A stretch of 64,000 bases of DNA from Rhodamnia argentea (taxonomy: Eukaryota > Streptophyta > Magnoliopsida > Myrtales > Myrtaceae), in contig NC_063155.1 of the NCBI RefSeq assembly GCF_020921035.1, positions 7,115,001 to 7,179,000 on the forward strand. Reading direction: 5' to 3'. Positions 5,141-63,860 of this stretch are shown piece by piece (position 1 is the first letter of the stretch; each line of letters starts with the position of its first letter). The notes under the pieces were generated by a model. It saw nothing but the letters and a program-made list of their open reading frames with translations. It searched no databases and was not told the origin of the DNA. Made by a program: the position numbers and the translations under genes.

Positions 5141-5144
5141 TAAA

Positions 5145-5570
5145 GGGGTAATGACACAAATGGTTTATAAACTTTGATTCAATGTATAATGTGGTTCATG
5201 AACTTTTAATTTGATCAATATGGTCCCTAAATTTTAGCCTCTTGTGCAATGTGGTTCATGAATTTTTAATCTGACTAATATGATTCTTAAACTCTTGGAA
5301 TATGTTCAACTTAGTCCTTGAATTGTATGAATATGTTCAATGTAGTCCTTCCATCAATTCAAGTTCAAGGACGAATTTGAACATTTGCTTATAGTTTATG
5401 AATTAAGTTGAATATATTTTAAAAGTTCGAGAATTGCATTAAATAAATTGAAAATTCGGGGACCACAATGTACATCATGTTAAAGTTTATAGATCTTATT
5501 GGTCGAATTAAAAGTTCAGAGATCTAAGCATATTATACCTAAGTTCAGGGGACCATTTGTGTAATCTTCC
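5145..5570. mobile_element. Foldback (MULE-like MITE) of family B, copy 1
   Basis: The arms start ggggtaatgacacaaatgg and end with its inverse, ccatttgtgtaatcttcc. Both arms consist of reiterated phrases such as 'ggttcatgaacttttaa' and 'caatgtagtcc', with a mid-point near 5360. The flanks share ACTAAA (about 7 of 9 bases if a 9-bp duplication is assumed). It is about 425 bp and closely related to 48047-48474. Confidence 0.65.
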
Positions 5571-5933
5571 TCGACTAAAATGACACCAATCAAATTACCG
5601 GACCAAATCACCTTGACTGTACCAACTATCTAAGTTTTTCCTTCTTGCCCTTTTTCTCCAACTCTAGTTTCATGTTTCTAACATTTTCGGACCCACATCC
5701 TTGAAAAAACACAGTATGCCGGCCCCACAAAAGAACCAGACAACAAAAAGCCAGCAGCCTCCGCACGATGACACCTAACTCAACTCGACTCGAAAGAAAA
5801 ACGCCTGCTGCTCTCCAAACTTTGGAGTCTCTCTCAACGTCTGTCCCAACCACCCCGGAAGAAGCCAGCTTTCTTGCACGAAACTTTGCTTTCATCGCCC
5901 CCTTCAGCGGACTTTCCCACTCTTTCCCTCCTC

Positions 5934-13329: not shown

Positions 13330-13800
13330 TCGCTTGCTTGGTGGACAAGAAGAGCGCTCCATTTTGTAGGAACCACCCGACACCATTATCCCTCATTAGT
13401 TTTCGCAATTTCGGAAGCATTTTTCCGTCTGTTTTGCTTACCGATTCTGTCGGCAAAGTAAAGAAAAAGGCCCAAGAAAGCGATTTTTATTGCGTTCCGC
13501 GATTCCTCGTACGGATTTTGATGGTCAGCAAGAGATTTCTTCTTCTTCCTTCTTTTGAAAACTTTAAAGATTGCATTATATTGACCCCACCTGTCAAACA
13601 TCTGTAACTATTTGGGAAATCTATGAATAACCGTCTTCCCGTTTACATTTCCTTCTCAAGCTACCTAAGGTTTTAACCCTATTTATTTGAGGGAAAGTAT
13701 TTTTCAAAAATTCGATTTTCGAACTTTCGCTCGTTTGGTTCACCGAAAATGACAAGTCAATCAAAAACACTCTTCGGTCAACGAAAATAATCATGTATAA
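13330..13800. other. PCO upstream region
   Basis: Holds the PCO promoter and 5' UTR on the minus strand; no clear TATA box was found. From about 13680 it grades into AT-rich repeat DNA with 'tttcgaacttt' and 'ccgaaaatgac' motifs typical of the MITE families in this window. Confidence 0.4.
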
Positions 13801-13807
13801 AATTAAG

Positions 13808-14290
13808 TGAAAATTTCAAATAATGACTCGAAGTGCATTCATTTTCTCAAATAAGAGCCTGAAATAAATTTTGTTTCAAATAAAAACTTGAAGTGCTCAA
13901 ATTATTTCAAAAAAAGGCTTGACCGAAGGGCACTTTGATCGTTTACTTTTTTGAATTTTTTTTCTTTTTTATTTTTGCCTTTTCTATTCTTTTTTTCCTT
14001 TTTCTCCCCTCCCTTGGTGATTGCCGTTCTTAGGCTGCCCTCATCGTCGCCCAACGCCGGGGAGGGTAACCTTGCCCTAGCTCGATGCCGGCCTGTGCAA
14101 GGGTAGTCCAACGTCGACTCGGGCCCTCTCCCGAGGCTGGCGATGGCTTGGGGGAGGGAGAAGAACGGAGGGAAGAAAAATAAAAGAAAAGAAAAGGCAA
14201 AAAGAAAAATAAAATAAAAAGTGGATAAAAAATATCCTTCGACTGGGTCCTAATGAGGGCACTTTGTGCTCTTTTTTGAAATTTTTCCTA
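13808..14290. mobile_element. Foldback element with GC-rich core (MULE-like)
   Basis: The left arm (gactcgaagtgca, then 'ttgaagtgctcaaattattt', then 'ccgaagggcactttgatcg') is repeated inverted and shortened at 14235-14290. The arms enclose a T/C-rich tract, a GC-rich core (about 14015-14155) and an A/G-rich tract. The arm sequence is the same as in the large element at 47944-49955. No coding part is recognised in the core. Confidence 0.6.
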
Positions 14291-14399
14291 AAATCAAAAA
14301 AGTGAAACTTTTCAATCTAAAGAGGTAAAAACACTTTTCAAAATTACTTCTTGAATTTTTTGATATTTTAATTATATATCCTTTTCTTTTTTTTCTTTT

Positions 14400-17447: not shown

Positions 17448-18565
17448 GGGTGCGTTTGTTTCATCGAAAACATTTTTTCGGAATTCCGTTTTCTTTGTTT
17501 GTTTGGTGATATGTTACCAAAAACGTTTTTTCATATTTGGATTTCATTTGAAAAATAATTTCAATCTCATAATTTTATTTGAGGCAAAAAAAAAAATTCT
17601 AATTTTTAATTTATTGTTTTATTATTCTTTCCTTTTCTTTTTTTATTCTTTTTCTTCTCCTTTGTTCCTCCACTGCCATCGACGAGCCTGGCAGCCACTA
17701 GTGAGCTTGAGGCCACCGTATATGCCCAAGGCCATTGGCGATGACAAGGTCGCTAGATCCAACGGCCTCAAGGCTTGCCGGTCGCTAGTCGCGGTGAGGG
17801 AGGAAGGAAAAAAAAAAGAAAAGAAAAGAAGAGAAAAGAAAATATTATTAAAATATTAAGTGTTAATACCACGAAAAATCACAAACCGGTACACATGTGA
17901 TAAATTTATCCAAAATTAATTTTTTGACCACAAAAAATTTCAAACTAATACACTTGTAATAAATTTACCCCAAACTAGTCACATATGACAAATTTACCCT
18001 TCGTTAGTTTTCGTTGAATTTAAGCGTCAAATTGCTGAGTTGGATGACATGGGCAATCAACGAGTATACTAGTTTGAAATTTTTATCCTCTGTTTATCAC
18101 GGGTTTATCAATTTGAGATTTTTCGTGATATTAACTCAATTTAAAGGAGAGTAAATTTGTCACGGGTGTACCAATTTGAGGTATTTCATGGTCAAAAGAA
18201 TTAATTTATGATAAATTTGTCACATATATACTAGTTTAGGGTTATTGGTGGTCAAAAAAATAGTTTGGGGTAAATTTATCACAAGTGTACCGGTTTAGAG
18301 ATTTTTGTGATTAAAAAAATAATTTAGGGTAAATTTATCATATGCATACCAGTTTAGAGTTTTTCATGGTATTAACTCAAATATTAATGAGTAGCAATTT
18401 TGAAAAGTGTTTTCACTTCTTCGGATTAGGGAATTTACTTTTATGATTTTGTACATAAACTTTCTTTGAGTGGAAAGTGTTTCTTATTGATTGAATCATT
18501 TTCGATGAACCAAACGGGTGAAAAACTAATTCCGGAAAAATACTTTTCCTCAAACAAACACACCC
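17448..18565. mobile_element. PIF/Harbinger (Tourist-like) MITE, enlarged by a nested insertion
   Basis: The termini are GGGTGCGTTTGTTT and, inverted at the right end, GGGTGTGTTTGTTT, flanked by TTA on both sides (17445-17447 and 18566-18568). A 3-bp TTA duplication with GGGTG-type ends is diagnostic of PIF/Harbinger. The body has a GC-rich core at about 17665-17800 and a nested foldback at 17860-18378. Without the insertion the element would be about 590 bp. It has no transposase, so it is non-autonomous. Confidence 0.75.
17860..18378. mobile_element. Foldback MULE-like element, family A, copy 1 (nested)
   Basis: Flanked by the 9-bp duplication AAATATTAA (17851-17859 and 18379-18387). Its ends gttaataccacgaaaaatc and its inverse gattttt...ggtattaac form long inverted arms. 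Each arm is made of tandem units of about 57 bp carrying phrases such as 'ggggtaaatttatcac' and 'gtaccggtttagag'. It lies inside the Harbinger-like element. Confidence 0.8.
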
Positions 18566-19062
18566 TTAACCTATTTTCATGTCCTTCTAGGATGACATAA
18601 GCAAAGGTTTTGCCACGCACTGAGGTTTCTAAGCACAAACCTTTCACTGGGGTTTCTTGATTTTTGCTACTATGCCCGTATGTTGACGTTATATGTGGAA
18701 TGCTTTTTCACCTTTCATCATCGGAAAAAGTACAAAAAAAAAAAAATTATAAATCTATTGTGTTTGTACTAATTTAGTCCTAAATTTTTTAATTGTGTCG
18801 GTTAAGTCCCAAATCTTTTGACGATTTACCAATATGGTCCATTCTGACTGAAAATCGTTAACATGTTTACCGGCCGTCCATGATCAATGCTCTTTAAAAT
18901 ACATTTAAGACTTTTTTAGAACTTTTCCCCGTTTATCAACTCTCTCACAGTTTCCACTCGGGCCACACTAATCCACCAAACCCTACTCATCTTGATCTCC
19001 TCCTTGAAAATGCTCTCTACAAATGGTCCCCCCCTCTCTCAACTTTGTGATGACATGATGCC

Positions 19063-19070
19063 TATAAATA
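19063..19070 (+). promoter_or_regulatory. TATA box of SSL unit 1
   Basis: TATAAATA lies 61 bases before the ATG. The intact SSL gene has the same octamer at the same distance, and both have a shared upstream block (tttccact, gggccacac, ccctactcatctt). Confidence 0.7.
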
Positions 19071-19130
19071 GTCTCATGTACTGCTTTTGCTCTTCATCCA
19101 AAAACACCGAAAGGTCCGAAACTACCAAGC

Positions 19131-19620
19131 ATGGCGGGTATTTCTAGCGTGAGATCAGAGATGACGTTCGCTACCGCCACTGTCCTTCTCTTTGCAATGC
19201 CTCCGGCTATCGCCCTGCCCATCTACACAACTCCCAAAGCGCCGCCGGGAACCGGCGGCCCCAAATCTGTTGCCTTCGACCCCCTCGGAGGTGGACCCCG
19301 CACCGGCATCGGCGACGGTAGAATTGTCAAATACATTCCACCTATCGGTTTCATTGATTACGCCTACATAGCACAAACTCGGTAACTTTTGTCTGTTGAG
19401 ACAAAGGGCTCCTACAATATATATTAAGCGCGCTAGTTATAGTTAAGTTTTTGAATACACGTACCAGTACTTACAACTTCGTTTTATTTGATGTCTTCCA
19501 CCATAAATATATATATGCCATTTTTTTCCGTGCATTTCGGGATGATTTAGAAACAAGATGTTCTGCAATGGGCGGAATGCAATGGGCTAATGCGACGGTG
19601 GGGTTAATCGGAATGCGTTT
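19131..19620 (+). pseudogene. Strictosidine synthase-like, truncated copy 1
   Basis: Exon 1 (19131-19384) is intact: a signal peptide (MAGISSVRSEMTFATATVLL...) followed by GTGGPKSVAFDPLGGGP, very close to the intact gene at 32197. After an intron, exon 2 starts near 19551 (NKMFC) but only some 20 codons, up to ATVGLIGM, remain before unrelated AT-rich DNA; the rest of exon 2 and all of exon 3 are absent. The promoter, with TATA box, is retained, so it could still be transcribed into a short secreted peptide, though this is speculative. It is a tandem duplicate of the SSL gene. Confidence 0.85.
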
Positions 19621-19639: not shown

Positions 19640-20213
19640 TACTCCCGGAACGTAAACGTGTTTTGCAAGGGTATAAAATTTCTATTCTTAGAAACAATTA
19701 GGTAGCGAGAATTTTTTTTAAAAATTTTTCATCTTTCCTTTAATTTTTTTAACTTGTTTTTATTTTTTTAAAATTTTATTTTTTATATTTTTAATTTACC
19801 CTTATTTTTTATATTCTTTAAAAATATTTAAAAATATTTATATTTTTGAATTTTTAAATTCCCTCTTTTAAATTTTTAACTTTTTTTTAAAATTTTAAAG
19901 CTTATTTTTAATTTTAATTTTAAAAATATGTATTTAAAAAAATTAGTAGTTAGTAAATTTTCAATTCTAATTTTAATTTTTTTTTAAGTTTGGAGTAAGA
20001 GCACAAATATTGAAATGGAGGAAGAACGAATAAAAATGCAAATGCTTTTCTACTTTTGTATTACAACTCTCTATTCCGAAGGTAACTTTACTTTTGTGGC
20101 TTGCTTACAATGCTTTACAAACGCTCTATTTATAGCTAAAGTTTTACTATTAAAAAAAAATCACTGCATTCATGACTATTTGCTCCAAGACAAGGATAGT
20201 ATCTAAAGTAGAA
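19640..20213. other. AT-rich intergenic filler
   Basis: Very AT-rich simple DNA (runs of tttttaaa) from 19680 to 19990, then unremarkable sequence. No gene, and no clear end repeats. Confidence 0.5.
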
Positions 20214-20222
20214 TAAATTTTT

Positions 20223-20573
20223 GGGTTAATACCACAAAAAACCTCAAACTAGTACACCTGTGACCAATTTAGCCCAAACTAATTTTTTTGATCACGAAAA
20301 ATCTCAAAACGATATACGTGTGACAAATTCACCATTCATTAAATTAGGTTAATATAACAAAAAATCCCAAATTAATACACCTGTGACATCTAACTTAGTA
20401 ATTTGATGGTTAATTTAACGAAAACTAACGGAGAATAAATTTGTCACAAGTGTACCAATTTAGAGTAAATTTGTCACGGATGTACCAATTTGAGATTTTT
20501 TGTGGTAAAAAAAATAGTTTTAAGTAAATTTGTCATAGGGGTACCAGTTTAGGGTTTTCTATGGTATTAACCC
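20223..20573. mobile_element. Foldback MULE-like element, family A, copy 2
   Basis: Perfect 9-bp duplication TAAATTTTT at 20214-20222 and 20574-20582. The termini GGGTTAATACCA are inverted at both ends. The arms consist of the same units of about 57 bp (ctcaaactagtacacctgtg and variants) as the copies at 17860 and 53778. Length 351 bp; no coding capacity. Confidence 0.88.
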
Positions 20574-20599
20574 TAAATTTTTCCAGCGACACCCATCAT

Positions 20600-21774: not shown

Positions 21775-22485
21775 TCTCTCTCGGTTTCCACTTGGGCCAC
21801 ACCAATACGCCATACCCTACTCATCTTGATCTCCTCCGATCGCTATCACTGCTTTCCTTCGCTTTGCAATGCCTTCGCCATTTGCCCCGCCCATCTACAC
21901 AACTCTCATCGATACCGGCCAGGCCACCTCGAATAGGGACACCACCGGAAGGCTAACGAGATTCGACCCCGACAACCGGGACAAGTTGCCATGTTGGCAA
22001 GGGGACTTTCGGGTCTCGGCGGCATTCTTGTGGCTGGTGATAGTTCCTACCTCCTCATCACCGAGTTTATCAGCAGCACCGTCAAGAAGTTCTTCCTAAC
22101 TCGCCCGAGCGCCAAAATGACTCGGACCTTGTTAAAGGCCACGGGCACAAGCACTATCGGGAGAACCCCGGGCGGAGAGTTTACACTTACGGAGAGGGAA
22201 AGGCCTTTCCAACATAGAGCACTAAGGATCAACGCAAACGGGACGGTTCTAGCGAAGTCGTCCATCGGCGGCCCTTACAACAATAGTACCGTTGTCACCG
22301 GAGTTCAAATCTCCGGTCTGTTTGCTTGCATTGGGTCTCTGTATGCAAACTTCATGGTGAAGTCCTGGGCTCTTCTAAAAGTTAAAACGCCCGTGTAAGG
22401 TTACCGCGGTGCTTCTACGGAATGAAGAAAGCAACGATGTTGTCCGAATCAAACCCGACTTCAAGTAATGCTGAATAAAAACACG
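21775..22485 (+). pseudogene. Strictosidine synthase-like, deleted copy 2
   Basis: Begins with the SSL promoter block (ttccacttgggccacac, ccctactcatctt) and part of exon 1 (about 21835-21905), then passes directly, with no intron, to exon 3 sequence (TGRLTRFDPDN at about 21947). Exon 2 and both introns are gone. Most of exon 3 follows in a shifted frame: SYLLITEFISSTVKKFFLT, GEFTLTERERPF, HRALRINANGTVLAKSSI and YNNSTVVTGVQI. The 3' UTR still has gctgaataaaa as in the intact gene. Loss by internal deletion is likelier than retroposition because promoter and 3' flank are kept. Confidence 0.85.
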
Positions 22486-24059: not shown

Positions 24060-26290
24060 TTTAGGTCGTCACATTATGAATGTTTTCAATTTTCTTTGTG
24101 CCCCGATCTTGTAATAAGATCATCAATTGTATTCCTACTTTTCTCAAAGATTAGTGATTCGCAGAGTGCCTCCGTGCGGAGACGTAACCCAAGTTTGGGG
24201 GAACTTTGATAACAAATTCTTTAGTATGTTCTAATAATTATGTTCTTCTATTATTGTAGTTTGCGGTGTAGATTGTTTGCTTAAGTTATTTTTCGGCAAT
24301 TGGTGTGCGATTCCCGACAACTAGTATCGAGCCTCGAGTTGGCTAATTGAGAACATCAAGATTTTTGGATGACGTTCGATTGAAAGCAAATGGTATGGCG
24401 GAAGATAAAATAAGAATAGATAAGTTCGATGGGCGGGATTTCAGATAGTGGAACTCTAAATAGAGGACTATTTTTATTAGAAAGATCTCTATGCAACACT
24501 TGAGGATTGGAAATCCGAACTTGCAAAAGTGGATCCAATAGCAAAATCGGGATGGGAAATTCTTGATCGGGTGGTGTTAGGTGCGATTCATTTAGAGTTG
24601 ACGACAAAAATAGGTTACCACATCGCGAAAGCAAAAACCGCAAAAGAAGCCATGGATATTCTAATGAATATTTATTAGAAACTGTCCACATCAAATCAAA
24701 TATTTTTGCTAAAGAAGCTGGTTAATATGAAGTTATCTGATAGAGGCTCTATGGCAGAGCATATCAATAATTTTAAGTAGGTCACGAGTCGGTTGGAATC
24801 CGCAAGCATAAATCTGGATATGAAGTTCCAAGCTTTATTATTTTTGTGTTCCATTCCCAAAAGCTACAACACCGTGGTGTAGGAAATTTTGAGCACCATG
24901 AGGATGATTTGACTACGGACGATCTTGTGAGCAGTATCATGGATGAAGAGATGTGAAGGAAAGTCTTAGGTGGAGATAAATTTTCGGCATCTACGTCTTT
25001 GACAGCACTAGCGGTGCAGAATCGTGGGAGAAGTAAAAGCAGAGAAAAATTCAGTGGGCATGGCAAGTCAAAATCCAAGGGGAAGAGAGAGTTTGCAAAA
25101 GATAAGTGTTGGTTTTGCCACTAGATGGGACACAGTAGATTTCAATGTGAAGCTTATAAAAAGAAGCAACGGGATGACAACAAAGAGCTAATGTGATAAG
25201 TGATGAACCTTTGATAGAGAACTTATGTTTGTCTATAGGGTTTGATTTACCGACAGATAAGTGGTTTGTTGACTCTAGTGCATCTTTTCATTGCACCTCA
25301 CAAAGAGACATATTTGTTGATTATTCTAGTGGAGATTTTGGACAAGTGGTTGTAGGAAATGGCCACAAGTGTCCGATTTTAGGAAAAGAAATTGTGATTG
25401 TGAACATCTTATGTGGAGGACGTCTAATTTTGCATGAAACTAGATATATTCCCGAGTTGAAGAAAAATCTGATTTCAACTAGTAAACTTGGTGAAGAAGG
25501 TATAGTAATAACTTTTGGATGTGGAGAGTGGAAGATAACCTCGGGGGCAAGAGTAGTAGTAGCAAATGGAAAGCATACGGGTACACTTTACCTTCTCTAG
25601 GGGACAATATCAATAATATGGTTGCAATTACGATGGTTATAGATAATTTGTCTACCCTTTGGCACTATCGTTTGAGACATTTTGGTGAAAAAGGTGTAAA
25701 GCGGTTACACTCAATAAAGTTGCTTCCAGGTTTTTAAGAAGTTGAGTTAGATTTCTGTGAGAGTTACATTTACGAAAAACAAAAAGCAATTAGTTTTCAA
25801 TTGAATGGGCGACAGAGTAAAGGCCAAAAGCTAAAGTTGATCCATACCGATGTGTGGAGATCGGCTCAGGAACTCTCTCATGGTGGTAAGAGGTATTTTG
25901 TCACTTTCATTAATGATGTGACAAGAAAGACGTAGGTCTATTCTTTCGGAGAAAAGTTAGAAGTATTTGGGGTGTTTAAAATATAGAAGACCATGGTGAA
26001 AAAGAGACATGTTATCAGATTAAGGCTTTGAAGTTTGATAAGGGTGGTGAATACACAAACAAAGAATTTGTAGAATATTTGAGTCATGAAGGCATACTTG
26101 GGTTGAAGACTATTCCTAGAATTCCTCAATAGAACGGTGTCGCTGAGAGGATGAACATGACTATTTTGGAGTGTGCAAGATGCATGAGACTACATGCGTA
26201 TCTTCTGTTACACTTATGGGATGTTACAATTGAGGTAAATGTATATTTGATTAACACGAGTCCATATAGTGTGTTAAATGGATCGATCTA
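24060..26290 (+). mobile_element. Copia-type LTR retrotransposon, decayed 5' half (fossil)
   Basis: Parts in order: an LTR-like stretch to about 24320, a primer-binding-like site (ctagtatcgagcct) just after it, gag (about 24380-25090), a CCHC zinc-knuckle region (about 25105-25160), a protease region (WFVDSSASFHCTS, about 25262-25302), and the GAG-pre-integrase and integrase region (to about 26280). It stops before reverse transcriptase. It is old and non-functional, with at least ten breaks. No 3' LTR is found. Confidence 0.8.
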
Positions 26291-31870: not shown

Positions 31871-32135
31871 ACCTTAGCACAAAATTTCAATATAGCCCTC
31901 TCAATCAATATTCACCAGGATTTGCCACGTAGCGCTCAAGTCATTGCCCCGATGCACACCTAACTTGTCCTTTGAATTGGAATTACCCTTCCCTATGTCA
32001 ACTTCATATGGTCGATCCCTTCTCTTGAGGTTTCCACTTGGGCCACACACTAATCCGCCCACCCTACTCATCTTAATTGATCTCGTGCATGAAAATGCTC
32101 AATAGAAGCGGCATCAGTGTTACCTTCGTGGAGCC

Positions 32136-32143
32136 TATAAATA
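32136..32143 (+). promoter_or_regulatory. TATA box of the intact SSL gene
   Basis: TATAAATA lies 61 bases before the ATG, in the same spacing as SSL unit 1. The conserved upstream block (tttccacttgggccacac) is at about 32029-32046. Confidence 0.75.
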
Positions 32144-32196
32144 CCCTCATGCACTTGCTCTGTCTCTTCATCCAAAAACACCGAAGCTACAAAAAC

Positions 32197-33636
32197 ATGG
32201 CGGTCGTTTCTAGCTTGAGATCAGTCACGATGATCGCCGTCGCCGCCTTCCTTCTCTTCGCCATGCCTCTGGCAATCGCCCTGCCCAGCTACACAAATAA
32301 TTTCTCACTGCCACCAGGCACCGGCGGCCCCGAATCTATCGCCTTTGATCGCCTCGGAGGTGGACCTTACACCGGCATCTCCGATGGTAGGATTGTGAAA
32401 CACGTTCCTCTCCGCGGTTTCATTGATTTCGCCTACACCGCACAAACCCGGTAATTTTTCTCTCTCGAACCAAAGTGGCTACTTCTATATTATGCCCGCT
32501 CATTATATTTGATTTTCTCAACCGTATAGTATACGAATACACGTACCAATTCATACATCTGGTTTTATGTATATACACAATATGTACTGGAATGTTACGC
32601 GCTCGGGCTTAAACTCGATCATCAAAAGCAATGTCCAAAGAAGTGGGTATTAACAGCACGAATCTACTGGACTAATTAGGTAATTTTTCTTGTGCATTTC
32701 GGGATGATTTAGGAACAAGACGTTCTGCGACGGGAGAAACGCGACGGCCGATGCCACGGTGGGGTTGATCTGTGGGAGGCCAGTAGGGATTGCATTCAAC
32801 AGTACTGGGTTTCTCTTCATCTGTGATGCTTACTTGGGGCTTTACGTGGTCGGTCCTTCCGGAGGACGAGCGACCCGGCTCGTTTCTTCCGCAGGAGGCG
32901 CAGCGATCCGCTTCTGTGATGGCTTGGACGTCGATTCTAATACCGGTTTAGTCTACTTCACAGATGCTAGCTCCCGATATGTACTCAGGTATGAACTATT
33001 AGCCTGCGAGAGCACACCATATTTACTGAGAAAATTCTAAGTACACTGAAAGGAAGCGGCTAGCGTAACCGTCCATTGCTCAATAATAGTGTGACGATGC
33101 TATGCTAGCACAAAACACCAGGATGTTAAGGCAATTTTACTTCTTTGGTTTGCATCAGCAATGCCACCCAAGCCATCCTGAATGGGGACAGAACCGGAAG
33201 GCTACTGAGCTTCAACCCGAGGACCGGACAGGTTGCCGTGTTGGCCAGGGGGCTTTCGGGTCCTGGCGGCGTCGCCGTGGCTAAGGACAGCTCCTACCTC
33301 CTCATCACCGAGTTCGTCGGCGGCACCGTCAAGAAGTTCTTCCTCACTGGCCCGAGTGCTAACAGGATTCAGACCTTGCTGAACAACGTCCCCATCGCGA
33401 GCAAAATCAAGCGAACCGTGGAAGGAGAGTTTACCTTCACGGAGACCGTAGCGCCCTTCACGCATAGGGCGCTGAGGATCAACGGAGACGGGACGGTTCT
33501 GGCGAACGTGTCCCTCGGTGGCCCTTACAACAACGTTAGTGTCGTCACCGGAGTTCAAATCTTTCGTGGGTTTACTTACGTTGCGTCTCTGGATGCCAAC
33601 TTTATTGATCCAGTCTCTGAGCTGGGGCTCGCCTAA
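32197..33636 (+). CDS. Strictosidine synthase-like protein (SSL), 3 exons
   Basis: Secreted or vacuolar six-bladed beta-propeller of the strictosidine synthase family; most plant SSLs are not alkaloid enzymes and their substrates are unknown. Exons 32197-32450, 32713-32988, 33159-33636, GT-AG, giving 335 residues, the family length. Seen: an N-terminal signal peptide (VAAFLLFAMPLAIALPSY), GTGGPESIAFDRLGGGPYTG, GRPVGIAFN, DGLDVDSNTGLVYFTDASS in exon 2, and GRLLSFNPRTGQVAVLARGL and YLLITEFVGGTVKKFFLTG in exon 3. Near the C-terminus, where strictosidine synthase has its catalytic Glu, this protein reads VVTGVQIFRGFTYVASLDAN without an obvious Glu, so a Pictet-Spengler role is unlikely (inferred alignment). 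A poly(A) signal aataaa lies at 33767. Two broken tandem copies lie upstream. Corresponds by position to Arabidopsis At1g74000-At1g74020. Confidence 0.9.
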
Positions 33637-43000: not shown

Positions 43001-46000
43001 ACCAAGTACAGACACTGCAGCATATAAGGACTAGAATGTAGCCTGTTAACCAGAAACCCATGGATCTTATACAATGAAAACCCTTTTCAATGTGTTTGCT
43101 CTTGAAAAGAATCCTGTTTCCACACCAAAATCGACATTTTAACCTGTTCCCACCAAAACATTCTCAAAAAAGAACAATCTAAATTGCATCTTTTCCAAAG
43201 GAAAGACCAATAGGATGTAATTTTAAGGGTGAGGGACCCGAGATTTGGAAATTATTTACTTAAAAATGATCGTAGGAAAAATATTTTCATCATCCACAAA
43301 AATGTTTAGCCTTAAATTGTTGTCAGTACGGAAAACATTTTCTGGTGACTAGTTTTTCTAAACAATATAACAACTCATTTTTTGGAAAATGTTTCCCAAA
43401 TCATTTATTTTCCGTGAAGTTAATGGACCCTCAAGAAAATGACAAGCTAAAAGTGAAAAGTATCTTTAGATCATGATGATAATTTGCAAACTCACTTTGT
43501 ACTAAAACAACCTCTGACCATTGCCTCTGTTTTTATTTAAAACATGTTCTCTAATGAATTTCCTAGAGGAACTCCAAATCAACACTTCTCCCATAACTTG
43601 CAGTATCTTATGGAAAAAGCCCAAATGTCGGTTTCACATTAGATCAAGTACCAATTTCAAGAAGTTTTCTGAATAGCTGAAATTTACAAGGTGATTTAGT
43701 TAGCAGCTACTATACCAAGAACTAATCAGAAACTTATTTTCAGAGAGTGGTATGGGAATTGAGCGGGAAACTAGATGCTGGTTTTACTGAATATCCTGGT
43801 AAATGCTTTAATGATATTACTTAACTTTTGCAGCAGAGGTCATTTTTATCAGAGTTGTGACACAACGATAACATTTTGGAACGCAATGCCAAGTGACTTC
43901 TAAGAGATTAAAATCTGGAACTTGGATCGCAAGTTTCGAAAGAGCTAAAGTGACAATCATTTGCTGATTTTCTGCCTAAGAATGGAACTAGAGAAAAGTC
44001 TGATTTAAGGTTCTATTACGTTCTGAAAAAACTTGGCAGCTGTTATTTGAATCTAGGCTTGCAAGGCAGGTTTTACTTGGTTTTCCATCATATCTCCAGA
44101 AGTAAGAAAAAAAATGAAAAATATGACACCATAGCAAGAAGCTTAACCTTATATTATCCCACCTCAAACATGAGATTGTATTTGCCATCCCTATTTCGCA
44201 TCCTGAGATATGATTGGCAAGCTTCTGGATCTTCACCAGGTGGTAGAAGATATATATCATAAGTTTCCTCGACACTCTCTGAATATGTTCCAGGGAAAAC
44301 AGCCTTGATTTCATCCTCTGTTACTGTCCTCGTTGACTGCGCTAAATAAAAGGTATGAATTAAAATACGGAAAAAGGAAAAGAAGCAAGTCTCGATCTGA
44401 TAGAAATGTGAAAATAGACTGCAAACTCCAGATAGAAAAGGTTTGACAATAACTTTGAGAATATAAGTGGGATTCTGAAATCCAGAGAAAGGATTAAATT
44501 TGTTGATTATTTTTATATGCGCAGTCTGAAGATCAGGCTCAATGAAAGCCTTGTACATTGGGTACACCTGCAGTGAGAAAAAACCTTGGTTAGATGCATC
44601 AATGGTGAAAAACTGAAAATAATAATCAGCAGACAACTGGACACCCCATTACTTAATTAAACTCTTGACACAGGGAAAGCAAGAAAACCGTTTCAGATAT
44701 CTGCTGAATGATTTCTTCAGGTTCTTGACCAGCACGTTGGATATCCCTTAGAACTCGTTTGACAAGGTCAAAATGAACCCCTCCAGTCACAGAGACGCGA
44801 AGATCAAGCAAAGGGCGCAATTTTTCGCTCAGGGCGTAAATGCCTTCTATAATCACAATGCGAGAACTGGGAACTTCAATATTCCTGTCAAAAGCATAAT
44901 GTCACTTTTTTTTTTGCGTAATGCATGTACAATGATACAAGTAGATGAAAAGCAGCAATTTTTAGTGTGTATTCTACAAAAGTTTTCAAATTTCATCAGG
45001 TAAATCTTTCTTCTTTTTTACCAATGAAGTAAGTAAAACTTTCCATATTTAGAGAGATGTGCATAACCTGTAGCCTATACGCGAGCTAGACTTGAAATCA
45101 TATATAGGAACCTGAACAGGCTTCCCGGCCTTTAAACCATGAATATTCTCAAGCAATGTGCCATAGTCCGTCAAGCGAGGATCTGCTTCAAATATAATTG
45201 TTAGAATTTATCCCTCATCTCTCATTTAGCAAAGTTCATGAAATAAGTAGTATTTTCAACATATAAGATGCCAATAAGGGAACCATATCCTAGAGTGCCT
45301 GTAGATGACTAAAGGAATTAGGCAGAAGAAAGACCACGCATGAAAGGAAATCAAAATGAAGATATGTGACAAACATAGCTGGCGCATAAGGCAAGCGAAG
45401 AAAGGAAGAATATTAAAGTAGTTACGTAACCAGATCATGTAGAAAAAGCTTTCATAAATTGACATGTTTCAACCTTCAGGCTTTGATAAAGATCGATCCA
45501 ATATTAAAAATCAAACAATTACGGAAGGAAGGGACACGCACTGATCTTAGAAGAGATGAAATGGTCATGCCCCATCTAGAAGAGATGAAATACTTATTAA
45601 AGAGAGATGACTCCAGAAAAAAGAAGCCTAGATCTTAGGGATGAAAAGAAGATCAATAGACCTACGTGACGGGTGAATATTAAGCATTCAGGCTTACAAT
45701 GCCCGAGAATTAAACCAGAGAAATCACAAAAATACATGGAAAATGGCCGCTTTACGTCACTGACCTACTCAAAAGCCAGGGCAGCTGGCAAAATAATGCC
45801 TTAATTAACTCAAAACGCAAGTATCTGGGAGCATTGTGTGTTCCTCTCATGCTAAATAAAATACACCAAGTCATCAAGTTTTACACATTTTTGCCAAGTT
45901 GGACTTGGTTGGCTCCTCTTCACTAACCTGGTTGGTTCCATTGAACTGATCAACTGCCACATGAAGATTTGCCCACAAAGCTAATAGATCTTTGCCACAA

Positions 46001-46695
46001 GCCAACACTCTGTTTCTTTCCAGTGCCAACATTTGGAGGAAGCTCTCTTCCTGACGGAAAAGCTAACCCATTCCTAGACATCAGTGTTTCTTTAAGATTG
46101 GAAGACAGCTAACAATCTCGAAGTGGCTGTTAATCCTCCTACCTCTAAATAGCTGATACTTCTCTTCGGTATTAAAAGTACTCTCTTTTGAAAGTGGACA
46201 TTCTGTGAACCTAATAAATCCTAGCTATTTTGAGTTTGTGCCTTCTATCTCTCCTAAAACTCTTTGGAATCTGGCTGAAGTGGAACCCAAGAACTTCCGA
46301 GGAATTTAAAATTGAAGATAAACCCAAAACCGACACGGATGAATAGAGGACTCACCATCGAAGTTGCCGTCAATTATGCGGCTGGAGTCATTGTAATTAT
46401 CCATTGATATGACAGCAATGCTGGGCATAAAGTTCAGCACCTTCTCGGTGAACACGGTCTTGCCAGCTCCAGAAGGACCGGCTACTCCAACTAATATTAA
46501 CCCATCATTCTTTTGGGCCAACAATTGACACGCCCGGATAAATATGAAAAAACCCTTCTCAAATGAAAGTGATTCCTGGATCGGAACGATCTCAAAGCGA
46601 TCAGAGTCCTTTCTCTTAACTATCTGGACCTGATCCCGCAAGAGGCCAGAACGCCGGCGAGGTGAATCGGCACTTGGTGAATTATCTTGAGCCAT
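40054..46695 (-). CDS. TTM1/TTM2: TTM1/TTM2-type uridine-kinase/CYTH phosphatase, tail-anchored, 11 coding exons
   Basis: Triphosphate tunnel metalloenzyme fused to a P-loop kinase-like domain; the Arabidopsis relatives are pyrophosphatases at the outer mitochondrial membrane acting in senescence (TTM1) and immunity (TTM2). Exons, minus strand: 46356-46695, 45068-45182, 44689-44884, 44454-44567, 44163-44336, 42500-42694, 41891-42013, 41710-41822, 41411-41531, 40939-41211, 40054-40266; sum 1977 bases, 658 residues. Seen: Walker A GPSGAGKT (about residue 80), [31 protein letters not shown], the CYTH region ([20 protein letters not shown] to [18 protein letters not shown]), a coiled coil ([20 protein letters not shown]) and a C-terminal anchor [17 protein letters not shown] followed by KTLTRQR. 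Exon 7 is placed at 42013 because the earlier AG at 42048 puts a stop in frame. Divergent from AIH. Confidence 0.94.
43205..43445. mobile_element. MITE-like insertion in TTM intron 5
   Basis: The arms agggtgagggacccgag and, inverted at the right, ttgagggtccattaac enclose 'gaaaaatattttcatca' and 'ggaaaatgtttcccaaatc'. The same internal phrases (aatgttta..cttaaattgtt) occur at 55870-56090, so the two are related copies. Confidence 0.5.
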
Positions 46696-47839: not shown

Positions 47840-48046
47840 AAAATCACGTAAATCATCCCTTCGATGTGACATTGCGCCGGTGTCCGACTTGAATTTCAGA
47901 ATACTTATGTTTTGTTGGGTTTCCATGGCTCTTGATCAATATGGGAAAATTTAAAAAAAAGACTCGAAGTGCTCTCATTTTATCAAATAAAGATTTCAAA
48001 TGGATTTTATTTCAATTAAGCGCCGGAAATGTCTAAATTGTTTCGA

Positions 48047-48474
48047 GGGATAATGACATAAATAATCCCTGAATTTTGATTTAACGTGCATTACGATTTT
48101 CGAACTTTAAATTTGTTTAATATAGTCCTCGAACTTTAACTTAATGTTAAATATGATCTCCGAACTTTTAGTTTATTCAATGTGGTCTTTAGATTTTTGT
48201 TACATGTTCAATGTAGTCCATAAATTATATGAAAATATTCAATGTAATTCTTCCATTGATTTAAGACTAGGGACAATAATGAACATTTTCATATGGTCTA
48301 GGGACTAAATCGAACATATACTAAAAGTTCGGGAACTATATTAAACAAGTCAAAATTTTAGGGACCATATTGCACATTGGGCTTAAGTTCATGGACTACA
48401 TTGAACAAATTAAAAGTCCATGGACCACATTACATATTAGGTCAAAATTCATGGATTATTCGTGTCATTTTCCC
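48047..48474. mobile_element. Foldback (MULE-like MITE) of family B, copy 2, nested
   Basis: The termini gggataatgacat and (inverted) gggaaaatgacac are flanked by ttgtttcga and ttgttttaa (7 of 9 identical). The arms repeat 'gaactttaa', 'caatgtggtc' and 'ggaccatattgcaca' phrases. About 428 bp, the same family as 5145-5570, inserted in the left arm of the Pack-MULE-like element. Confidence 0.7.
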
Positions 48475-48603
48475 TTGTTTTAAAGAAAGGCCTAATTGAA
48501 GGGCATTTTCGCCATTTACTCTTTTAATTTTTTTCCTTTTATGTTTTTGTTTTTTCCTTTTCTTATATGTTTTTTTATTTTTCTTTTTCCCCACCCCTCG
48601 CCT

Positions 48604-49195
48604 ACCCAGGCCATCACCTTCTGCAAGACCTCCTCCCTCCTCGAGAACTCCATCAGCGACACCTCTGCGTCTTTGCCCCCGTCGACGAGTGCGCCAACGG
48701 TGCCTACGCCGGCCTCCCCACCATTGCCGCCAACAAGCCCATCCTTTGCCTCATCTAGGAGCAGATCGCCATCCTCCACACGGGTGGCTCTGACGAGCAT
48801 TCCGACGCCGCCTCCCTCATCTCCCTCACCAGGGACAACGACGGCTTCGGCAAGTTCATCCTCGAGGAAGGCGGCGTCGGCCCCCTCCTACGGCTCCTTA
48901 AGGAGGGCAAGTCCGAGGGCCAGGAGAAAGTCGCGCGCCATCGGCCTTCTCGGCCACGACCCCCAAGAGTGTCGAGCACATGTTCCATGCCGACGTCTGT
49001 CAAGTGTTCGCCAAAATCCTCAAGGAGGGACCCATGAAGGTCCAGGCCATCACTGCCTGGGCCGTCTCCGAGCTCGCCGCCCACTAACCTAAGTGCCGGG
49101 ACCTCTTCGTCCCTCAGAACATCATTCGCAGCCTCGTCAGCCACCTCGCTTTTGAGACCATCCAGGAGCACAGCAAGGACTCCATGTCATTGCTC
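48604..49195 (+). pseudogene. Captured ARMADILLO-REPEAT-ONLY (ARO) gene fragment
   Basis: Reads in all three frames as pieces of an ARO-type armadillo protein: QAITFCKTSSLLENS, DECANGAYAGLPTIAANKPI, EQIAILHTGGSDEHSDAASL, DNDGFGKFILEEGGVGPLLR, SVEHMFHADVCQVFAKILKE, PMKVQAITAWAVSELAAH and NIIRSLVSHLAFETIQEHSK. Several frameshifts and at least two stops make it non-functional. ARO proteins are GTPase-signalling adaptors in tip-growing cells; this is only a transposon-carried exon piece of about 590 bp. Confidence 0.85.
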
Positions 49196-49288
49196 TGTGA
49201 AGAGAGTTCTACATGTGTTTGGTGGCCACAGAAGTTAGCTAAAAAAAACGGTGTGTAAACGAAGAATTCAAACATAACTTTAGTTCCT

Positions 49289-49560
49289 TTAGATGGTTGA
49301 AGAAAATATGGATACATATGTAACGAAGGGAATTGGCCTTGAGTGTGGCGATGGTATACTTGCACTGTGGAGGCAGGTGAAACAGTCTAATGCTGTCAAG
49401 TCCGGCATACACTGTGCAAGTGCGTACAGCTGCTCCGACTTCGTGAAGTTTTTCGTCGCCACTGTGGCCTTCTTCCCAAAGCGATCGTGGCACGTCGTTC
49501 AAGTTTTCTAGAGAAGCTGCATGGACCGGTTTGGGTCGGTGACATTCTCGACATCGAACC
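49289..49560 (-). pseudogene. Captured DUF26 (CRK/Gnk2-type) exon fragment
   Basis: On the minus strand one frame reads WFDVENVTDPNRSM, then another DRFGKKATVATKNFTKSEQL followed by YALAQCMPDLTALDCFTCLH, the C-X8-C-X2-C pattern of DUF26 (stress-antifungal) domains of cysteine-rich receptor kinases and secreted proteins. It ends at a stop near 49289. It is broken into at least two frames and lacks the rest of the protein. Confidence 0.8.
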
Positions 49561-49561
49561 A

Positions 49562-49725
49562 TATCAGATTGTGGCAGAGGATGGGCTCGTTGGCGGCGAT
49601 GGGGAGAGGCCGAGGTAGGTGTTGTCGGCGCAGTCGGCGGCGGGGGCGGAGAAGCGGAGGAGCCTAGACGTTGCCCGTGGAGTTCTCGAGGAGGGAGGAG
49701 GTCTTGCGAAAGGCAATGGCCTGGG
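49562..49725 (-). pseudogene. Second ARO fragment, opposite orientation
   Basis: The minus strand encodes ARPPPSSRTPRATSRLLRFSAP and (another frame) AIAFRKTSSLLEN, then CADNTYLGLS and a segment matching 'IAANEPILC'. It is the same N-terminal ARO segment as at 48604-48750, in inverse orientation, so the element's inner ends form an extra inverted repeat. Confidence 0.7.
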
Positions 49726-50148
49726 GAGGGGAGCGAAGGGGAGGGGAAAAGGGAAAAAAGATAAACATAACTGAGAAGGAAAAACCAAAAACACAAAAAG
49801 AAAAGAAATCAAAATAGTAAAGGGCGACAATGCCCTTCGATTAGTCCCTTTTTTGAAATAATTTAAGCACTTCGAGCCCTTATTTAAAACAAAATCCACT
49901 TCAAGTCCTTATCTGAGAAAATGAGAGCACTCCGAGCCCTTTATTTAAATTTTTCCTCAATATCATCAAAATTTTAAAAAGTTGTCACCAAAGTTTCGGG
50001 AGACGAAGGCCGTCCATTCAAATCCGATTGATTGTGTAAAATCCTCCAAGCGCAAACGAGTCGGGATTGCATTTTCAAATAGTATGACTCTTATGCTCGT
50101 GCCACTTAAATTATTGAAAGATCTCGCCAAATAAATGGCCCTACTTGT

Positions 50149-50752: not shown

Positions 50753-55452
<4,700 letters not shown>

Positions 55453-62889: not shown

Positions 62890-63860
62890 TTTTCAAAATT
62901 CCTCGGAAAAATTGTTCAAAAAGCCCTAAATCTATTGTACAACAGTCAATTCACTTCCAAATCTTTTGATTGTGTCAAATTTAGCTTAAACCTTTTGACA
63001 TTTAGGGGAAAATTGTCAAAAAAGTCTTAAATCTTTCACACTTTTGTCAATTGAGTATTAAACCTTTTTAAGTTTGTTGATTTAGTTAGAAACCTTTTCA
63101 CTTTTAGCCAATTAACTCCTATTTGCTGGAAATCTTGTTGGTGATAATTTTTAATTTTTTTTTTTTTTTTTCGTTGCTAGCTTCAAGGCCGGTGACCCCG
63201 ACCAGATTAAGGCATGCAAGGGTTGGTAAGGGCGGGCAAGGGCCACGATGGCGACAGCTATAACCAATCGCCTTCGGTAGTGAGGGCTTCGCGGCCCTCA
63301 CCCGGGGGCCGACGACCCCGTTGGTCCTTGCCCAAGGGTAGGCGACCCTTGTTGGCTCTAATCCAATGGAGGTTGTTGACCTTGAAGCTAGCAAACAGAA
63401 AAATGAAAAAAAAAAAAAAATCGATTTTTAAAAATAAAAATGTTAAAAAAATTAGTAAAAATTGTCTACATCAATGTCACCGGTGCCACGTAAGACGTCC
63501 GGCGTCCATGTGAGCAAATTTTGACAAAAGGTAAAAAGGTTTAGGACCCAATCGATAAACTTAAAATGTTTAGGATTGAATTGGCAAAAGTGTGAAATAT
63601 TTAAAACTTTTTTAAAAATTTTCGTCAATTTAGTCTTAAACCTTTTGACGATTTGTCAATACGACCATTCGGGCTAATCATCCAAATAATAGGTTTAGGA
63701 CTAAATTGACAAATCTTCACAAAGTTTATGACTAAGTTGGCACAATCGAAAAAATTTAAGACTAGATTGGCAAATCGTCAAAAGGTTTAGGACAAAATTG
63801 ACACAATTAAATGGTTTAAAACCGAAGTAACCGTCCTAGAACAAATTCAAGACTTTTTGG
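62890..63860. mobile_element. Foldback within a foldback, GC-rich core (family C)
   Basis: Outer arms: 'aaaaagccctaaatctattg' at 62918 and, inverted, 'caagactttttgggac' at 63850. Inner arms: 'gtcaaaaaagtcttaaatct' at 63013 and 'tatttaaaacttttttaaaa' at 63597. Flanks of the inner element, gacatttag and tcaatttag, agree at 6-7 of 9. The core 63177-63395 is GC-rich (gaccccgaccag, ggccctcacccgggg) between T15 and A15 tracts. No domain is recognised in the core. Confidence 0.55.

Follow-up and report, generated by a model that had tools for sequence, protein, structure and literature searches.

A probable old Pack-MULE-like transposon carrying armadillo and DUF26 gene pieces in Rhodamnia argentea

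The interval between two divergent genes of Rhodamnia argentea holds a sequence of about 2.0 kb (2014 bases, positions 47943-49956 of the window, that is, of the whole 64-kb stretch of DNA that was analysed) with long inverted arms. The element is non-autonomous, real and well bounded, and constitutes a tidy but ordinary case of a known phenomenon. It is probably an old, non-autonomous Pack-MULE-like DNA transposon containing gene pieces from two unrelated donors, an armadillo (ARO-type) gene and a DUF26 gene. Its old age is deduced from the arms, which are only about 80% alike. A preliminary description had presented the locus as a composite Pack-MULE-like element with ARO and DUF26 fragments, and all the parts that it listed were present, although some of them had to be corrected.

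The long inverted arms were recovered by BLAST in two alignments of the left against the right arm, one of 102 bp with 79.4% identity (E 1.4e-19) and one of 293 columns with 76.8% (E 4e-58). The extended arms comprise positions 47943-48044 plus 48475-48753 on the left and 49956-49570 on the right, and each of them consists of about 235 bp of arm-family sequence followed by about 150 bp of armadillo sequence common to both. A nested foldback interrupts the left arm, which runs from 47943 to 48044 and then from 48475 onward. Its outer TIR part (47943-48044, plus strand), which belongs to an arm family also found in a sister element, is identical to the right arm at 80 of 101 positions. The inner TIR part (48484-48609, plus strand) extends up to the armadillo junction and shows 99/122 identical positions over 48481-48607. 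Based on BLAST and pairwise alignment, the TIR of the right arm, without the foldback, was placed at 49721-49956 on the minus strand. The outer ends read GGGAAAATTT from 47943 and, read from the right, GGAAAAATTT from 49956, and 16 of their first 20 bases agree. Directly outside both arm starts lies the direct repeat TCAATAT, at 47936-47942 on the left and 49957-49963 on the right, with all seven bases identical; in the local flanks, 7/7 in a single fixed register would arise by chance with a probability of about 0.0016. A flanking duplication of nearly 9 bp had been proposed earlier. This was rejected, since the repeat is a perfect 7 bp and only two of nine bases match when the comparison is lengthened to 9 bases while keeping the register of the arm ends. 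It is possible that an original 9-bp duplication lost two bases on one side of the element.

A sister of the element without captured pieces, here called E2, was located at 13807-14288 (plus strand, 482 bp). BLAST aligned its arm with 74% identity over 224 columns (E 1e-33), and the arm sequence common to E2 and the main element covers about 200 bp. E2 is flanked by its own 9-bp target duplication (13798-13806 and 14289-14297, TAAAATTAA and TAAAATCAA) with eight of nine bases identical, and at least 8/9 would be expected by chance in a fixed register with a probability of about 0.002. Because E2 carries the arm together with its own target duplication, the arms represent a mobile family, with one sister copy in the 64 kb. 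A lack of further arm copies would have counted against the proposed transposon; with E2 present in the window, the idea survives. An arm model was built from both arms and the left end of E2, so that these three were recovered by construction, yet it also found the right end of E2, which is absent from the model, at an E value of 2.3e-06. The reversed window gave no match to the arm model at E up to 0.01. A 28-letter arm pattern had 0 matches among viral contigs, a collection that is uninformative for a plant family. In a tblastn search of the window at E up to 1, only the main element was listed for the armadillo and DUF26 peptides, and E2 matched neither.

MULE target duplications measure 9-11 bp and MULE arms 100-500 bp according to the available text of PMC3310237, and a target duplication of 8-11 bp is described as the accepted rule in that of PMC3903597. 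By this measure the perfect 7-bp repeat of the main element falls short, whereas the 8/9 duplication of E2 lies within the rule. The main element does have the long TIRs (100-500 bp) and the host gene fragments, between and within the arms, that are Pack-MULE traits. The length of its flanking repeat, which is not that of a MULE, would agree with capture of the pieces by a DNA transposon of some other superfamily, for instance hAT, and no transposase that would settle the class was found; yet the 8/9 target duplication of 9 bp in E2 and the long arms are MULE traits (PMC3310237, as far as its text was available), and we regard a non-MULE origin as quite unlikely. Pack-MULE-like is retained as the best class for the main element, which works like an old Pack-MULE and most likely is one; the length of the flanking repeat is the single strict trait in which this copy departs from the class, and E2 has that trait.

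The nested foldback announced in the preliminary description was found in the left arm at 48047-48474 (428 bp), with MITE-like structure. Its own arms (48046-48241 and 48280-48475) are 70% identical, 17 of 20 bases agree at their ends, and the stretch 48045-48474 had a folding z of -11.5 against 100 shuffles. It is bordered by a 9-bp target duplication, with TTGTTTCGA on the left (48038-48046) and TTGTTTTAA on the right (48475-48483), of which 7/9 bases are identical. The corresponding site is uninterrupted both in the right arm and in E2, which indicates that the foldback was inserted after the arms existed; it is an independent, later insertion and not part of the main element. A relative of the foldback, M5, was located at 5145-5571 (5143-5574 in the BLAST match) with 303/420 identical positions; no clear target duplication was found around M5, where 3/9 bases matched in register and 6/9 after a shift of one base. 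The foldback thus combines the traits of a MULE-type MITE: a 9-bp target duplication (7/9), inverted ends and a relative. Elsewhere in the window, two overlapping weak matches to the foldback, with E values of 9e-05 and 2e-04, were observed on both strands at about 63616-63800.

The first class of cargo consists of two armadillo pieces in inverse orientation, a claim of the preliminary description that held, with ARO-type sequence beginning at 48610 on the plus strand and at 49720 on the minus strand. The longer copy (48610-49189, plus strand) is interrupted by two stops and a frameshift; when it was read through with X at these positions, it matched the Pfam Arm family at 2e-06, above the cutoff. 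Translated as two separate frames, it gave values of 0.016 and 0.017, both below the cutoff. Compared with solved structures at E up to 1, the longer piece matched 89 distinct sequences, the best 60 of which were viewed; among the matches listed, the top one was a designed armadillo protein (7.8e-21) and the top natural protein was importin alpha (4e-07). The unbroken ORF 48496-49092 was also considered as a real protein and was rejected as a coding gene, as it belonged to no Pfam family. The shorter copy lies inverted in the right arm (49570-49720, minus strand) and is identical to the left copy at 119/145 sites. In Pfam it matched only positions 97-119 of the 120 of DUF7792, with an E value of 0.0085, below the cutoff. 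In ARO proteins, Arm repeats follow an N-terminal region of the DUF7792 type. We take the donor to have probably been an ARO gene from this layout and from the order of DUF7792 and then Arm in the pieces, of which the DUF7792 end is below the cutoff.

The second class of cargo is a DUF26 (PF01657) piece at 49304-49567, which was expected as an exon on the opposite strand and was indeed found reading on the minus strand from 49567 to 49304 (Pfam E 1.8e-06, above the cutoff), with two stops in frame. It also matched Cysteine-rich repeat secretory protein 15 (E 8.9e-4), and its donor could have encoded either a receptor kinase or a DUF26 protein that is secreted. In the right half of the element, the DUF26 piece and the shorter armadillo piece have the same orientation and abut near 49570. 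The remaining 49190-49303 (37% GC) is unassigned filler that may derive from an intron or the flanks of the DUF26 donor. The armadillo pieces have GC contents of 62% and 67% and the DUF26 piece 50%, whereas the arm parts range from 28 to 38%. Both gene pieces are broken, as would also be the case if ordinary armadillo and DUF26 genes of this locus had left pseudogene debris that happened to lie between repeats. Such an origin is hardly credible, however, because the arms, the flanking repeat and the sister coincide with the edges of the element, and tblastn identified no other armadillo or DUF26 copy, hence no donor, in the 64-kb window.

The two armadillo copies bear on the order in which the captured element was assembled. 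Their similarity begins at the same base and codon of each arm (48610 on the left, 49720 on the right), directly after the arm-family sequence, and the left-right identity is similar in the arm and gene parts (80/101 in the outer arm, 99/122 in the inner arm and 119/145 in the armadillo sequence). The copies differ at 26 of 145 aligned sites. Mismatches at codon positions 1, 2 and 3 numbered 9, 6 and 6 over 41, 40 and 40 sites, a count that covers 121 of the 145 aligned sites because stretches by gaps were dropped. In this small test no excess of third-position differences between the two copies was found; the 9/6/6 pattern has a P of 0.0036 if a third-position share of 60% is assumed and 0.039 for 50%, in a test whose power is reduced by the GC-rich third positions. 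The lack of a third-position excess suggests that the copies drifted without coding constraint, unlike paralogues under selection. Among the 26 differences there were 19 transitions, seven of them at CpG, and of the transitions in the arm parts 1/15 and 1/10 were at CpG. Independent captures of armadillo paralogues, one at each end, would account for the 26/145 differences, but the common start base in both arms and the 9/6/6 pattern (P 0.0036 for a 60% share) make them very improbable. Taken together, the same start base and the missing third-position excess fit one capture that was copied into both arms, with a second capture beside the right arm. Of the two captures and internal inverted duplication postulated at the outset, the two unrelated gene pieces and the inverted duplication of the armadillo piece stand, while the duplication was not a free internal event and belongs to the extended arms.

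The distances among the arms complicate this order. Combined arm-family identity was 80.3% between left and right, 80.3% between left and E2 and 84.0% between right and E2, values that rest on short alignments with many gaps. The two arms are therefore at least as far from each other as each is from E2, which speaks against a simple late copying from arm to arm. Copying near the time of the family's spread, exchange of sequence between arms or a chimera of two sisters could each account for these distances. In the last case, two sister elements sharing an armadillo-carrying end would have existed, and a half with the long armadillo piece would have been joined by recombination or end pairing to a half with armadillo and DUF26. 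Besides the lack of closeness between the two arms, the right inner arm is closest to E2 (78/88 identical), as a chimera would predict; against it, two armadillo-bearing elements are needed and one is seen in the window, and the arm alignments are short and gappy. We consider the chimera unlikely, though it is the main rival, and keep a single capture with arm copying as the most likely course.

Under single capture with arm copying, a member of the arm family would have been moved by a transposase provided from another place in the genome, and in the course of repair-type copying one arm would have gained a coding piece of an armadillo (ARO-type) gene at its inner end. The arm with its armadillo piece would then have been copied to the other end, giving longer arms, and a second template switch may have brought in the DUF26 receptor-kinase-type piece beside the shorter armadillo copy. 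The element would have inserted into the interval that separates the TTM-like from the AIH-like gene and decayed, and a second MULE-type foldback would later have entered the left arm. At the junction, the right end of E2 shares 18 of 22 bases with the right arm and 16 of 22 with the left, and a joining of armadillo to arm at microhomology would fit. Template switching at a shared short sequence has been described for animal Pack-TIRs (PMC8277862, from the part available). In the putative ancestral junction, a 9-base match was equalled in 12 of 500 shuffles, so that support for microhomology is modest. As for consequences, no protein product of the element is evident, and any effect would be predicted to act through spacing, chromatin or small RNA. 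A more speculative proposal, to which we attach little probability, is that the element preserves a two-step order, with an exon entering the extended arms first and the second capture occurring at the exon's inner edge, and that, if the inverted armadillo copies were co-transcribed, small RNAs against ARO and silencing of the TTM and AIH promoters could follow.

Pack-MULEs with several donors are common in rice. In eudicots, 220 Pack-MULEs have been counted in tomato and 46 in Arabidopsis (PMC3310237, in the text available), so a eudicot Pack-MULE is not rare in itself. Like those of rice, maize, Arabidopsis and tomato treated in that source, the element studied here is non-autonomous, has long arms and a GC-rich cargo of gene fragments and lies near genes; unlike them, it has a 7-bp flanking repeat and arms of about 80% identity. 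The same source states, citing other work, that captured sequence can become part of extended arms, and the armadillo piece inside both arms is a parallel, except that the two copies here differ in length and one of them adjoins the piece from a second donor. Gene capture has been reviewed (PMC13317346, available in part), and transduplications have been reported in grapevine (PMC2528002). The latter are likewise eudicot class II elements with pieces of host genes, among them a MULE family that carries cellulose-synthase sequence; in the part of that paper available no two-donor case appears, whereas the main element has two donors. A small foldback within a MULE-type element also recalls the nested MITE in the accessible part of PMC3903597, but that example is a Tourist-like MITE in rice and the foldback described here has a MULE-type 9-bp target duplication. 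The element was not named in the titles and abstracts of the literature searched, where Pack-MULEs and Eucalyptus together yielded single mentions only. It adds one eudicot case whose arm extension, two donors and nested insertion can be ordered from sequence alone, and it may help annotators to avoid calling its pieces real ARO or CRK genes. It is one more data point on the joining of gene pieces by such transposons and opens no new question by itself.

The window, with 39.8% GC, has a gene content that looks like plant nuclear DNA in its ORFs and Pfam matches. On one side of the element, ORF 44154-44636 (minus strand) matches CYTH at 2.4e-07; on the other, several exons downstream of 50753 (plus strand) match PAD_porph, at best with 1.2e-20, as expected for TTM and AIH, respectively. 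The TTM name of the gene on the CYTH side is partly our assumption, because the P-loop ORF 46306-46695 (minus strand) had only matches below the cutoff. Insertion between divergent TTM and AIH genes, as first proposed, is in agreement with these neighbours, which match the CYTH/TTM and agmatine-deiminase families. The idea that the element widened the space between them is likewise borne out, as it makes up 2014 of the 4057 bases between the presumed start codons at 46695 and 50753.

Several other repeats were observed in the window. The region of the AIH-like gene contains a tandem duplication of 140 bp (54674-54813 and 54811-54950) that is 98.6% identical. A repeat family in both orientations (17851-18388, 20213-20582 and 53805-54200), with one copy region in the AIH-like gene, is probably another foldback or tandem-unit family. 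Two dispersed repeat pairs, 18950-19450 with 32030-32516 and 21906-22355 with 33155-33605, are about 74-76% identical and lie in the same order; they probably reflect a local gene duplication, and the ORFs in them are presumably strictosidine-synthase-like. Finally, ORF 25193-25600 (plus strand) looked by eye like a fragment of a copia-type retrotransposon.
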